Positions 4,477 to 47,944 of a DNA stretch of 48,430 nt are shown here, one piece after another. Both the position numbers and the translations under genes were made by a program. The DNA lies in assembly GCA_944322855.1 (NCBI GenBank), contig CALUQG010000016.1, forward strand, positions 1 through 48,430, written 5' to 3'. The stretch comes from Candidatus Gastranaerophilales bacterium. Lineage in GTDB: Bacteria; Cyanobacteriota; Vampirovibrionia; Gastranaerophilales; Gastranaerophilaceae. The first letter of the stretch is position 1; each line of letters begins with the position of its first letter. The notes beneath the pieces are model-generated. The model had not been told where the DNA came from. It was given only the letters and a program-made list of their open reading frames with translations, and made no database searches.

Positions 4477-4498
4477 TTTTTGAATAAATTAAATGTTG

Positions 4499-4533
4499 AA
4501 AAGCTCTGCTTCGTATAGCAGGGCTTTTTTATT
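4499..4533 (+). terminator. Intrinsic terminator after aldo/keto reductase
   Basis: AAGCTCTGCT pairs with AGCAGGGCTT (one wobble) around loop TCGTAT, followed by a run of T. Confidence 0.9.
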
Positions 4534-4557: not shown

Positions 4558-4586
4558 TTGCATATAGCTAAAAGTAGCATTATAAT
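4558..4586 (+). promoter_or_regulatory. Sigma70-type promoter giving a leaderless nanE mRNA
   Basis: TTGCAT (4558-4563), a 17-base spacer and a consensus TATAAT (4581-4586) lie so close to ATG 4594 that transcription would begin at or one base before the start codon. No Shine-Dalgarno sequence precedes the ATG. Confidence 0.7.
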
Positions 4587-4593
4587 TATATTT

Positions 4594-5280
4594 ATGGATA
4601 TACTTTCACAGATAAAACAAAAAGTAATTGTATCAGTACAGGCAATGCCGTCTGAACCTTTGTACAAAGAAGAATGCATGATAGCCATGATGCAGTCAGT
4701 TGTTAAAGGCGGTGCAGCAGCTTTAAGAGTTGCAGGCGTAAGAGATGTTGAGAATGCAAAAAAACTCTTTAAAATCCCTGTTATAGGAATAACAAAACCT
4801 GAAGTTATTCCTGCTAATTGGAGAGAAATCGTCTATATTACACCGACAATAAAAGACGCAAAAGATTTGATACAAGCAGGTGCTGATATAATTGCACTGG
4901 ATGGAACTTCCCGTCCGAGAGGGGAGAACAATCTAAAACAAATTATAAAGTTTATTAAAATCAATAAAAAGCTTGTAATGGCAGATGTGTCTACATTGTC
5001 AGAAGGCATTGCCGCAAGACTGCTGGGGGCTGATATTATATCAACAACTCTGTCCGGTTATACACTTGAGTCTCCGGAGACTTCTAACAAACCTGATTTT
5101 GAACTGCTGAAAGAACTTGTAAATGCTGTTGATTGCCCTGTAATTCTTGAAGGAAGAATATGGGAGCCGCAGCAGGTAGACCTCGCTTTTGAAATTGGTG
5201 CTCATTCTGTTGTTATCGGCTCTGCAATTACAAGACCACAGCTTATTACAAAAAGATTTGTGAACAGACAGGAAAATTAA
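4594..5280 (+). CDS. nanE: N-acetylmannosamine-6-phosphate 2-epimerase
   Basis: NanE converts ManNAc-6-phosphate to GlcNAc-6-phosphate in the cytoplasm. The N-terminus DILSQIKQKVIVSVQA, the GGAAALRVAG segment, ALDGTSRPRG and MADVSTLSEG match the NanE TIM-barrel family at its usual length (228 residues). I chose ATG 4594 because family homology begins there; an in-frame TTG at 4558 is instead part of the -35 element. The next gene, 12 bases away, is a ROK sugar kinase, the usual nanK partner, and a NagA for the next step is encoded at 39.9-40.8 kb. Confidence 0.93.
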   Translation: MDILSQIKQKVIVSVQAMPSEPLYKEECMIAMMQSVVKGGAAALRVAGVRDVENAKKLFKIPVIGITKPEVIPANWREIVYITPTIKDAKDLIQAGADIIALDGTSRPRGENNLKQIIKFIKINKKLVMADVSTLSEGIAARLLGADIISTTLSGYTLESPETSNKPDFELLKELVNAVDCPVILEGRIWEPQQVDLAFEIGAHSVVIGSAITRPQLITKRFVNRQEN

Positions 5281-10991: not shown

Positions 10992-11020
10992 TTGTGTTTG
11001 AGGTAACAAGATATTAGAAT
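10992..11020 (+). promoter_or_regulatory. Promoter giving a leaderless ABC permease mRNA
   Basis: TTGTGT (10992-10997), a 17-base spacer and TAGAAT (11015-11020) are followed after 6 bases by ATG 11027. Initiation would fall on the start codon; no ribosome binding site lies directly upstream. Confidence 0.6.
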
Positions 11021-11026
11021 TGGGTA

Positions 11027-11851
11027 ATGAAAAAATTTATAAAAATTACTGGTTATTTATTAATTATCATAGGTGCAATCTCAATGCTGGCACCTTTTAT
11101 CTGGATGATTTCTGTTTCTTTTATGACTGATTTTCAAATTTTTTCAGTTCCTGTAAAAATTATTCCAAATCCTCTTATTTTAGATAATTATATTAATGTA
11201 TTTTCAAAACTTCCTATCACAAGATTTTTTTTAAACAGCCTGTTTGTCGCAGTAACAACAACTGTTTTTCAGGTGATTTTTTCTTCATTGGCCGGATATG
11301 CTTTTGCAAGAATAAATTTTAAAGGAAAAGATTTATTGTTTTTTATCTTTATTGTAACAATGATGATACCTCCTCAGGTCAATATAATTCCGTTATTTTT
11401 TCTAATGAGGGAGCTGCATTTGATTGACACATTTCCTGCTTTGATTTTGCCGGGAATTTTTGGAGGAATGGGGGTATTTTTGATGAGGCAGTGGTTTAAA
11501 TCTGTTTCAACTGAAATCGAAGATGCAGCAAGGATTGACGGATGCAATCTGTTTGAAATCTTTTTCAAAATAGCTTTGCCTGTTTCTATGCCTGCAATTG
11601 TCACTCTGGGGTTGTTTACTTTTGTCACGACGTGGAATAGTTTTATGTGGCCTTTAATTGTTACAAATTCACTTCGGGTTACGACTTTGCCTGTTGCGAT
11701 TGCGCAATTTAAAGGCAGTTTCCGTGAACTTATACAATGGGGCGATTTGATGGCATGTTCTGTTGTTCTGTCAGTACCTGTAATTATTATATTTCTGGCC
11801 GGTCAAAAATACTTTATAAATGACATTCTTGCAGGCAGTTTGAAGGAATAG
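11027..11851 (+). CDS. Carbohydrate ABC transporter permease (MalG/UgpE type)
   Basis: This 274-residue inner-membrane protein has six predicted helices and the EAA loop (EIEDAARIDGCNLFEIFFKIALP) that docks the ATPase. MISVSFMTDFQIF and WNSFMWPLIV match the MalG-like subfamily that imports sugars or glycerol-phosphate. Such permeases normally work with a second permease, a binding protein and an ATPase; none is adjacent, so partners must be encoded elsewhere. Its promoter appears to produce a leaderless message. Confidence 0.9.
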   Translation: MKKFIKITGYLLIIIGAISMLAPFIWMISVSFMTDFQIFSVPVKIIPNPLILDNYINVFSKLPITRFFLNSLFVAVTTTVFQVIFSSLAGYAFARINFKGKDLLFFIFIVTMMIPPQVNIIPLFFLMRELHLIDTFPALILPGIFGGMGVFLMRQWFKSVSTEIEDAARIDGCNLFEIFFKIALPVSMPAIVTLGLFTFVTTWNSFMWPLIVTNSLRVTTLPVAIAQFKGSFRELIQWGDLMACSVVLSVPVIIIFLAGQKYFINDILAGSLKE

Positions 11852-15919: not shown

Positions 15920-15925
15920 TATAAT
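15920..15925 (+). promoter_or_regulatory. -10 element directly before the OppF-type start codon
   Basis: A consensus TATAAT ends 6 bases before ATG 15932, placing the predicted transcription start on the A of the ATG. The -35 region is poor. No ribosome binding site is present. Confidence 0.5.
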
Positions 15926-15931
15926 ACTTTT

Positions 15932-16891
15932 ATGCAAAAACTTATAGAAATCAAAGATTTGAATATGTATTATCCTGTTTCATCAGGTATATTAAATTCT
16001 GCGAAAGAATATATAAGAGCATTGTCTGATATAAATCTTGATATTTATAAAGGTGAAATTCTGGGATTAGTAGGAGAATCAGGATGCGGAAAATCGACGC
16101 TTGGAAAGGCAATATTGAGACTGCTTAATCCTGAGGGTTATGTGTATTACGAAAACAAAAATCTTTTGGAATTCGACAGAAAAGAACTAAAACAATTCAG
16201 AAAAAAAGCTCAGATGATTTTTCAAAATCCTTTCTCGAGTCTTGATCCCAAAATGACAATATATTCACTTTTGAGAGAACCTCTTGTTGTACACAAAATA
16301 CGAGACAAAAGTGAAATAAATTCCAGAATTCACGAAATTATAAATCTTGTCGGGTTAAACGATGAGGATCTCAAAAGATACCCTCACGAATTTTCAGGAG
16401 GACAAAGGCAAAGAATTGCTATCGCGAGAGCTTTGATATTAAAACCGGAATTTCTTGTGGCAGATGAACCGGTTTCTGCTCTGGATGTAAGCATTCAGGC
16501 TCAGATTATTACTCTTTTACAAAATTTGAAAGAGAAACTTAATCTCACAATACTTTTTATTTCACATGACCTCGGGGTTGTAAAATATCTTTCTGACAGA
16601 ATTGCTGTAATGTACCTCGGTGATATTGTCGAACTTTCCGAAACTCATGAATTGTTTAAAAATCCGAAACATCCTTACACAAAAGCTTTGATTTCTGCAG
16701 TTCCATCAATTCATGAAAAAGCAGTCAAAGAAATAAAACTTGAAGGAGATTTGCCTTCTCCCAAAAATCCGCCTGAAGCCTGTAAATTTCACACAAGATG
16801 CAAAGACGTGATGTCTGTTTGCTCACAAAAAGAGCCTGAATTTACAAAAATTTCAGACTCTCATTGTGTAAAATGTCATTTGTATGACTAA
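15932..16891 (+). CDS. Oligopeptide/dipeptide ABC transporter ATPase (OppF/DppF-like)
   Basis: This 319-residue ATPase has Walker A GESGCGKST, the Q loop, signature FSGGQRQRIAIARA, Walker B FLVADEP and the switch His in FISHDLG. A C-terminal oligopeptide/nickel extension carries four cysteines (CKFHTRC, CSQKE, HCVKC), the pattern associated with an iron-sulfur cluster in some Opp/Dpp ATPases. Normally it pairs with OppD, two permeases and a binding protein; none is nearby, so the gene is an orphan. It converges with the secreted protein gene with adjacent stops (TAATTA). Confidence 0.92.
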   Translation: MQKLIEIKDLNMYYPVSSGILNSAKEYIRALSDINLDIYKGEILGLVGESGCGKSTLGKAILRLLNPEGYVYYENKNLLEFDRKELKQFRKKAQMIFQNPFSSLDPKMTIYSLLREPLVVHKIRDKSEINSRIHEIINLVGLNDEDLKRYPHEFSGGQRQRIAIARALILKPEFLVADEPVSALDVSIQAQIITLLQNLKEKLNLTILFISHDLGVVKYLSDRIAVMYLGDIVELSETHELFKNPKHPYTKALISAVPSIHEKAVKEIKLEGDLPSPKNPPEACKFHTRCKDVMSVCSQKEPEFTKISDSHCVKCHLYD

Positions 16892-22869: not shown

Positions 22870-22878
22870 ATTATACCA
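22870..22878 (-). promoter_or_regulatory. Extended -10 promoter for the membrane protein-miaA operon
   Basis: The minus strand reads TGGTATAAT, then CAAAGCC, then ATG. The extended -10 would start transcription within one base of the start codon. Confidence 0.55.
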
Positions 22879-44796: not shown

Positions 44797-44805
44797 TGCT
44801 ATATT
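44797..44805 (+). promoter_or_regulatory. Extended -10 promoter directly before a GTG start
   Basis: TGCTATATT ends 6 bases before GTG 44812, so transcription would start on the start codon. No clear -35 and no ribosome binding site are seen. Confidence 0.5.
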
Positions 44806-44811
44806 ATTTAT

Positions 44812-45540
44812 GTGAACAACTTACAAAATGAAATAATTCAGACTCGAAAAATATACAAAGAACTTTTTGAAAAAGGGAAAGAAGCTGTTGATGCGCAAAT
44901 AAACGCATTGAAGTCAGTATCTCTTTGCAATCATTGCCGCCGGAATTGCAAAATAGATTTCAATACAATTGATATGTTTGACACATTCCCCGAAAATTGC
45001 CGTTATCGTTTCTGGCAGGAAGCTGCGCTGGATCTTCTTGAAAATAAAATCTCAAAAGATATATTAGAAAGAATAAAAATTATTGATGAGAGAAGAAAAT
45101 GTTATTCCTGCAGCTGTTGTTCTTCTTGCTGCAGACTTGCCAGCTCGGAATTTTCTTATGACGAATTGAAAGACAGAGCGAAAAAGGGAGATAAATTTTC
45201 AAGAGATTTTGTAAGTGTATTTGTTCCATATAAAGATATAGAAGATGCAAAAAAAGTTTATCCTGACTATGTGGAACTTATTGAAAAAACTTTTGATAAA
45301 TCAGAAAAAGTCTATTTTTATTACTGTCCCAAATTAGGAACGGACGGTTTATGTTCTGATTATGAAAACAGGCCCGATATATGTCGTGATTTTCCAAACA
45401 ATCCTCTTGTTATTCTTCCTTTAAAGTGTTCTTTTAATGAATGGAAAAATGAAGTAGAAATTACCGCAATGACAATGCACGCTTTAATTGATATAATCGG
45501 TTTTTACAAAGATAAATTACAAAAAGCACTGCGTAAGTAG
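44812..45540 (+). CDS. YkgJ-type cysteine cluster protein
   Basis: The roughly 242-residue protein is rich in cysteines. It has an N-terminal pair CNHCRRNC, a central cluster CYSCSCCSSCC and the family signature YYCPKLGTDGLCSDYENRPDICRDFP, which resembles the CxxYxxRPxxCRxFP motif of YkgJ/UPF0153 proteins thought to bind zinc or iron. GTG 44812 was chosen from the extended -10 six bases upstream; ATG 44794 is an alternative start giving six more residues. Role unknown. Confidence 0.82.
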   Translation: MNNLQNEIIQTRKIYKELFEKGKEAVDAQINALKSVSLCNHCRRNCKIDFNTIDMFDTFPENCRYRFWQEAALDLLENKISKDILERIKIIDERRKCYSCSCCSSCCRLASSEFSYDELKDRAKKGDKFSRDFVSVFVPYKDIEDAKKVYPDYVELIEKTFDKSEKVYFYYCPKLGTDGLCSDYENRPDICRDFPNNPLVILPLKCSFNEWKNEVEITAMTMHALIDIIGFYKDKLQKALRK

Positions 45541-47226: not shown

Positions 47227-47497
47227 AAAATAACCTTTCGTAAAAATTTTTGTAATAAAGTTATCAGCACTAAAACATCTGAAAATAGAATTTGTTATTA
47301 CAAATTTCAGGCTTTAATATTCTGTTACAAATTAGGATTGTTTTTAGCTTTATATAAAGAATTATAAGTGTGGTTTTGTATTTAAAGTTGTATGATTTCT
47401 TTCAGAAATATTAAGCCTAAGTTTTTCTCAATTTTTTTGTTTCTATGTAAATTAATAGAATTGTTAGTTTTGTATTAATTGTGATATTCTTTAATTT
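47227..47497. other. Divergent intergenic region, AT-rich
   Basis: About 270 bases between divergent genes. Apart from the promoter for the acetyltransferase at its right end and the ribosome binding site of the minus-strand gene at its left end I see no further structure or gene. Confidence 0.5.
47461..47490 (+). promoter_or_regulatory. Promoter giving a nearly leaderless GNAT mRNA
   Basis: TTGTTA (47461-47466), an 18-base spacer and an extended -10 TGATATTCT ending at 47490. ATG 47498 follows after 7 bases, without ribosome binding site. Confidence 0.55.
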
Positions 47498-47944
47498 ATG
47501 CAAATTAAAGAAATAACTAAAAATAAAACTGCTTATATTGATATTTTGTTAATCGGTGATGAAGATGAAAAAATGATTAAAAAATATATAGAGCAGTCAA
47601 TTATTTTTTCGTTATATGAGAATAATGTATTAACTTCTGTTTGTGCCGTTATAACAATAGATAATGAAACAATAGAAATAAAAAATCTTGCAACATATCC
47701 CGAATACCAAAATAGAGGTTATGCATCAGCATTGATTAATTTTGTATGTAATAAATATAAAAGAAATTATAAGTATTTAATTCTCGGCACCGGAGAAAAT
47801 AACAAAACACTGGAATTTTATAAAAAACGAGGTTTTCAAGAAACACATCGGCTAAAAAACTTTTTTATAGATAACTATGAACATCCAATTTTTGAAGAAG
47901 GAAAACAACTCATAGATATGATTTATTTAAAGAAAATTTTATAA
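47498..47944 (+). CDS. GNAT-family N-acetyltransferase
   Basis: This 148-residue protein has the GNAT fold order: strands SVCAVITID and EIKNLATYPEYQNRGYASALINF, the latter being motif A with the Q/RxxGxA acetyl-CoA loop, then YLILGTGENNKTLEFYKKRGF (motif B, the typical FYKKxGF). It transfers acetyl groups from acetyl-CoA to an unknown amine. It is a single-gene unit and the mRNA appears leaderless. The final 25 residues (DNYEHPIFEEGKQLIDMIYL) resemble those of small-molecule acetyltransferases. Confidence 0.9.
   Translation: MQIKEITKNKTAYIDILLIGDEDEKMIKKYIEQSIIFSLYENNVLTSVCAVITIDNETIEIKNLATYPEYQNRGYASALINFVCNKYKRNYKYLILGTGENNKTLEFYKKRGFQETHRLKNFFIDNYEHPIFEEGKQLIDMIYLKKIL

Follow-up and report, generated by a model that had tools for sequence, protein, structure and literature searches.

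How are genes transcribed and translated when a promoter-like -10 hexamer ends only six or seven bases before the start codon? The question is raised by six genes in a 48,430-nucleotide stretch of a Candidatus Gastranaerophilales genome. This stretch, called the window here (G000:C16:1-48430), has a GC content of 34% and belongs to an assembly of 2,010,558 bases in 33 contigs (G000). Gastranaerophilales is an order of Vampirovibrionia, a class of Cyanobacteriota that does not photosynthesize. We define the gap as the number of bases between the box and the start codon, and a one-mismatch box as a hexamer with no more than one mismatch from TATAAT. All six boxes that the original prediction placed 6-7 bases before start codons are present as claimed (Table 1). 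Five of the six pass the one-mismatch rule, four of these at an ATG, while the GNAT box, TATTCT, is weak and fails with two mismatches. The gene on the minus strand (22862-21996) gave no match in Pfam.

Table 1. Coordinates of the promoter elements and associated features in the window
Feature	Position	Strand	Basis and spacing
-35-like TTGCAT of nanE promoter	4558..4563	+	sequence inspection
-10 TATAAT of nanE	4581..4586	+	gap 7 to ATG; TTGCAT-17-TATAAT
nanE coding sequence	4594..5280	+	ORF; Pfam PF04131, E=1e-58
Hairpin with U-rich tail	4498..4529	+	after upstream aldo/keto reductase gene; -18.3 kcal/mol, z=-5.6
-35 TTGTGT of ABC permease gene	10992-10997	+	
-10 TAGAAT of ABC permease gene 11027-11851 (PF00528)	11015..11020	+	gap 6; TTGTGT-17-TAGAAT
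-10 TATAAT of OppF-type ATPase gene 15932-16891	15920..15925	+	gap 6
-10 TGgTATAAT of gene 22862-21996 (membrane protein)	22870..22875	-	gap 7; TGGTATAAT
-10 TGcTATATT of CxxCxxCC-domain gene 44812-45540	44800..44805	+	gap 6 to GTG; TGCTATATT
Weak -10-like TGaTATTCT of GNAT gene 47498-47944	47485..47490	+	gap 7; TGATATTCT

The nanE gene illustrates the arrangement. A pattern scan of its region gave a promoter match of 10/12, with two promoter-like sites against 1.9 in shuffled sequences, and TTGC or TTTGC is visible at the -35-like element in many nanE orthologs. The hairpin upstream, which was not among the matches of that scan, is read as an intrinsic terminator, and nanE is probably the first gene of its transcription unit because this hairpin with its U-rich tail follows the upstream gene. 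The nanE coding sequence is predicted to begin at the 5' end of the mRNA or one nucleotide inside it. A longer reading of nanE from the TTG at 4558 was rejected, as that start would fall inside the -35 element and the ATG at 4594 is where the alignment of the orthologs begins.

Boxes were counted across 848 kb of the genome (848,430 bases; 42% of G000) containing 700 genes, taking all in-frame ATGs of the 5' portion of the called genes, a procedure that requires no choice of start. Genes in this and the other local samples were called with a lower-order model gene caller. The sample includes the window itself, and dropping the window's own sites would leave the result unchanged. Exact TATAAT hexamers occur 14 times at gap 6 and 8 times at gap 7, with counts of 0-3 at each of the remaining gaps up to 19, and a second, broad mode lies about 23-40 bases before ATG, as expected for leadered genes. 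With one mismatch allowed, 60 boxes are found at gaps 6-7 where 21.8 are expected (P=1.3e-11); about a third of these matches are thus expected by chance. A genome of the sister genus (G100; loci L136-L145 and L186-L195) gives 39 against 12.7 expected (P=2.6e-9). The enrichment, for which the original prediction had proposed a genome-wide scan, therefore persists at this scale and, as described below, throughout the family, and chance is excluded genome-wide as the source of the peak at gaps 6-7.

Control counts were made for the reversed hexamer, for ATGs that are out of frame or in frame but internal, and for gaps 9-15, with gap 14 serving for whole genomes. No peak is seen for out-of-frame ATGs (9 at gap 6 and 8 at gap 7) or for the reversed hexamer TAATAT (2 at each of these gaps). 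The one-mismatch set of the reversed hexamer has an elevated count at gap 6 (21), an excess we attribute to TAAAAT and TATTAT being common to the forward set; this overlap makes it a poor control. Internal in-frame ATGs (n=4671) show the three-base periodicity of coding sequence, with 16 boxes at gap 6, which lies in the low phase, and 44 at gap 7. GTG starts in G000 have no peak (2/199 at gap 6). GTG starts of the sister-genus genome carry the box at gap 6 in 7 of 96 cases, and gap 5 and gaps 7-11 have no boxes.

Shine-Dalgarno (SD) sequences were scored as SD 4-mers at in-frame starts over the first or next 30 codons. Because SD 4-mers peak at gaps 5-10 in G000, the genome is a mixed one. 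That the ATG following a box lacks an SD was dropped as evidence, since the box sits in the place of the SD and the absence is forced by geometry. An SD further downstream is informative, and it bears on the possibility that starts are misassigned, with the box driving a leadered mRNA that is really translated from an SD-led, in-frame start farther downstream. Start calls are computational and the N-terminal lengths of orthologs vary, both of which leave room for this explanation. Only 1 of the 60 box genes, however, has an SD-led in-frame start within 30 codons downstream, close to the background of SD-preceded internal codons (20/549), compared with an SD start in the first 30 codons of 327/640 other genes (Fisher 2.6e-16). 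The corresponding values in the sister-genus genome are 1/37 box genes and 200/302 other genes. Misassignment is also countered by orthologs with shifted starts, in which the spacing follows the ATG, and we consider it very improbable.

The orthologs with shifted starts come from a set of 144 scored loci out of 180, with the window's own loci excluded; these orthologs are not mutually independent. All 35 nanE and all 29 permease loci were scored, along with 28/29 for OppF, 22/29 each for the membrane protein and the 44812 gene, and 8/29 for GNAT; the remainder fell below 45% identity, aligned only from beyond residue 30, gave no tblastn match or offered no candidate start. The 35 loci returned by the nanE product search are mostly Candidatus Gastranaerophilales MAGs, the rest being uncultured bacteria, of which one carries the title uncultured Clostridia. 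Among the 144 orthologs, 78 have the box before an in-frame ATG or GTG at gap 6 and 35 have it at gap 7, with at most 13 at any of the remaining gaps up to 19. A box at gap 6-7 is carried by 112/144 orthologs, 4 of which look like chance: the nanE matches of L023, L024, L026 and L027 probably fall by coincidence in the apparent end of an upstream gene. By gene, the counts are 25/35 for nanE, 20/29 for the permease, 24/28 for OppF, 17/22 for the membrane protein, 22/22 for the 44812 gene, where the start is ATG or GTG, and 4/8 for GNAT, these four carrying TATATT at gap 6. Where the start codon has moved, by -7 to +3 codons, the box spacing travels with the ATG; by ungapped extrapolation these shifts are -1, -2 and +2 codons in nanE, -4, -2 and -7 in OppF, and -4, -1 and +3 in the membrane protein. 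Such orthologs make leaderless initiation testable by sequence alone. Of the 13 permease and OppF orthologs scored in other families of the order, 11 have no box at gap 6-7.

The boxes are concentrated in first genes. In G000, first genes have 48 boxes at gap 6-7 against 14.2 expected (P=1.5e-12), and the peak among operon-internal genes is not significant (11 versus 7.6 expected, P=0.15). In the sister-genus genome, first genes have 30 against 8.5, and internal genes are weakly enriched (9 versus 4.2, P=0.03). The excess amounts to about 7% of first genes in G000 and 11% in the sister-genus genome, or 0.055 and 0.078 per gene over all genes, values that count one-mismatch boxes at ATG only and so miss weaker boxes. 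By this same measure, neither genome reaches the level of more than 20% leaderless genes that characterizes high-leaderless phyla. Leadered promoters, with the box 20-40 bases before ATG, and SD starts are both commoner than boxes at gap 6-7, and by the strict box these genes are a minority class and not a rule. The original prediction had taken leaderless initiation to be systematic for first genes; the leaderless reading of its sites holds up as the best one, but its reach is limited to about 7-11% of first genes. Its companion claim, that operon-internal genes have ordinary ribosome binding sites, is not borne out: SD starts are no more frequent in internal genes (110/238) than in first genes (214/455) of G000, and many internal genes within the window lack a 4-base SD. 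Pfam searches of 20 genes outside the window with an exact TATAAT returned mixed enzymes, regulators and recombinases.

The box also resembles a promoter in its flanking elements. Pooling G000 and G100, an extended TG element accompanies 31/99 box sites compared with 16/176 boxes at gaps 9-18 (P=8e-6), and a -35 match (4/6) accompanies 33/99 compared with 38/176 (P=0.04). When only exact TATAAT is considered, neither difference is significant (TG 12/42 versus 3/26, P=0.14; -35, P=0.80). These elements bear on the alternative that the A/T-rich hexamer is a translation signal, similar to the non-SD ribosome-binding region of Bacteroidetes, and not a promoter. About half of the sampled genes have no 4-base SD start, implying that some form of non-SD initiation is common, a point in favour of this alternative. 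Against this, the hexamer sits at one fixed distance and is enriched for TG and, more weakly, for the -35 element, and a translation signal should also precede operon-internal genes, whereas the box is concentrated in first genes. A translation signal is thus a most improbable explanation. As separate observations on initiation in this sample, nearly half of the genes have neither a box at gap 6-7 nor, within their first 30 codons, any start with an SD 4-mer, and the A content of codons 2-6 shows no enrichment in box genes (0.46, equal to that of SD genes).

The boxes at gap 6-7 are in all likelihood best explained as sigma-70-type promoters of leaderless mRNAs, a reading for which the positional peak, the concentration in first genes, the scarcity of SD starts, the persistence in orthologs including those with moved starts, and the recurrence throughout the family all argue. 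Transcription usually starts about 7 bases after the -10 box. Since only 6-7 bases separate the -10 hexamer of an apparently ordinary sigma-70-type promoter from the start codon, RNA polymerase is predicted to start at the A of the ATG or one base before it, the exact position being derived from this spacing. A transcript beginning with AUG would have no room for an SD, and by analogy with other bacteria, in which translation of leaderless mRNAs by 70S ribosomes is described (PMC9031893), its 5'-terminal AUG would most likely be bound by the 70S ribosome.

A closely related possibility is that the mRNAs have a short leader and are not strictly leaderless, with transcription starting 1-4 nt upstream of the ATG. 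This would accommodate the enrichment at gap 7 as well as the eight nanE orthologs (L003-L010) with the box at gap 8-9, and a spread of boxes over gaps 6-11 is seen in a relative from the same class, described below. Gap 6, however, dominates in the family (43 versus 17 at gap 7 in G000, and 28 versus 11 in G100), which fits initiation at the A, and we regard a short leader as rather unlikely to account for the sites. Leaderless transcription from the A or the base before it remains the preferred reading.

The pattern TATAAT-N6-ATG recurs throughout the family. It outnumbers its reversed control by 1667 to 862 in 23 genomes of the same genus and by 8156 to 2722 in 69 genomes of other genera, and the gap-6 count is above the control in 92/92 family genomes. 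At gap 14, the 69 genomes have 4103 against 3608 reversed. Outside the class, 26/79 genomes of the phylum exceed the reversed control, and the ratios there (f16, f18, f22, f25, f26 and f29) mostly stem from small counts. In the largest group outside the class (f24, 19 genomes), the gap-6 count of 975 compares with 1000 at gap 14. Two further counts are of note: 210 at gap 6 versus 66 at gap 14 in genus g47 of f10, within the class, and 121 versus 55 in f18, within the phylum. From these counts, the trait may extend beyond the family and the class.

Local samples of single relatives give a graded picture. A genome of the same order (G046) has 6 boxes at gap 6-7 versus 2.5 expected (P=0.045), and a phylum relative (G225) has no peak there (6 versus 6 expected). 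A class relative (G073, loci L171-L185) has TATAAT spread over gaps 6-11 before ATG, no later mode and weak SD use, a pattern that suggests very short leaders (0-5 nt) and not a fixed spacing. Judging by their position in the phylum, f24 and G225 are both presumably photosynthetic. One tentative reading, which we hold to be possible though somewhat doubtful, is that the non-photosynthetic class has long used initiation without a leader or nearly so, that this old trait was sharpened to a fixed spacing of 6 bases in the Gastranaerophilales family and relaxed to 0-5 nt leaders in other families (G073), and that the photosynthetic branch lacks it. If so, sister lineages of one phylum would use different initiation systems. 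With a strong signal in one family and none in the sampled phylum genome, the group in any case offers a natural comparison of initiation systems within one phylum.

Comparison with known systems places these genes close to the TA-led (leaderless) genes of Zheng et al. 2011 (PMC3160421), which are described as having a TANNNT/TATAAT-like -10 signal about 10-12 bp before the start codon and no SD. Such genes are reported there to exceed 20% of genes in Actinobacteria and Deinococcus-Thermus, unlike the excess of about 5.5-8% of all genes found here. The same paper describes many Cyanobacteria as having neither SD nor leaderless signals (PMC3160421), unlike the Gastranaerophilales lineage, which uses both. 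PMC5397173 treats an AT-rich bias, seen in Cyanobacteria among others, as possibly leaderless, and 19 gene transcription start sites (TSSs) of Synechococcus elongatus UTEX 2973 are considered leaderless in PMC6091082. The mixed class of GeneMarkS-2, SD plus leaderless, is given as 21.6% of bacterial species in the StartLink paper (PMC9581028); G000, as a mixed genome, would fit this class, and the same text places Cyanobacteria, as an example, in the weak-unknown-signal class, unlike the mixed Gastranaerophilales lineage. The leaderless transcriptome of Mycobacterium tuberculosis has been mapped by TSS (Cortes et al. 2013, PMC3898074), and there too the -10 box lies directly before the start codon, although here that position is read from sequence. 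According to that study (PMC3898074), the promoters of M. tuberculosis have no -35 consensus and TGN precedes only 7% of boxes, compared with TG at 31/99 sites and a weak -35 here; ATG and GTG are used alike there, whereas in G000 the peak occurs at ATG only.

A literature search, with most subscription papers outside its reach, found no report of leaderless genes in Gastranaerophilales or Melainabacteria, and the mechanism is thus a known one in a lineage apparently unreported for it. Gene finders relying on SD sites alone will misplace starts in these gut bacteria. Finally, a sequence like ACTACAAGTTTT is found about 24 bases before the -10 box upstream of the membrane protein gene (22862, minus strand) in most box-bearing orthologs (L257-L278), and this repeat is possibly an operator or a non-standard -35 element.
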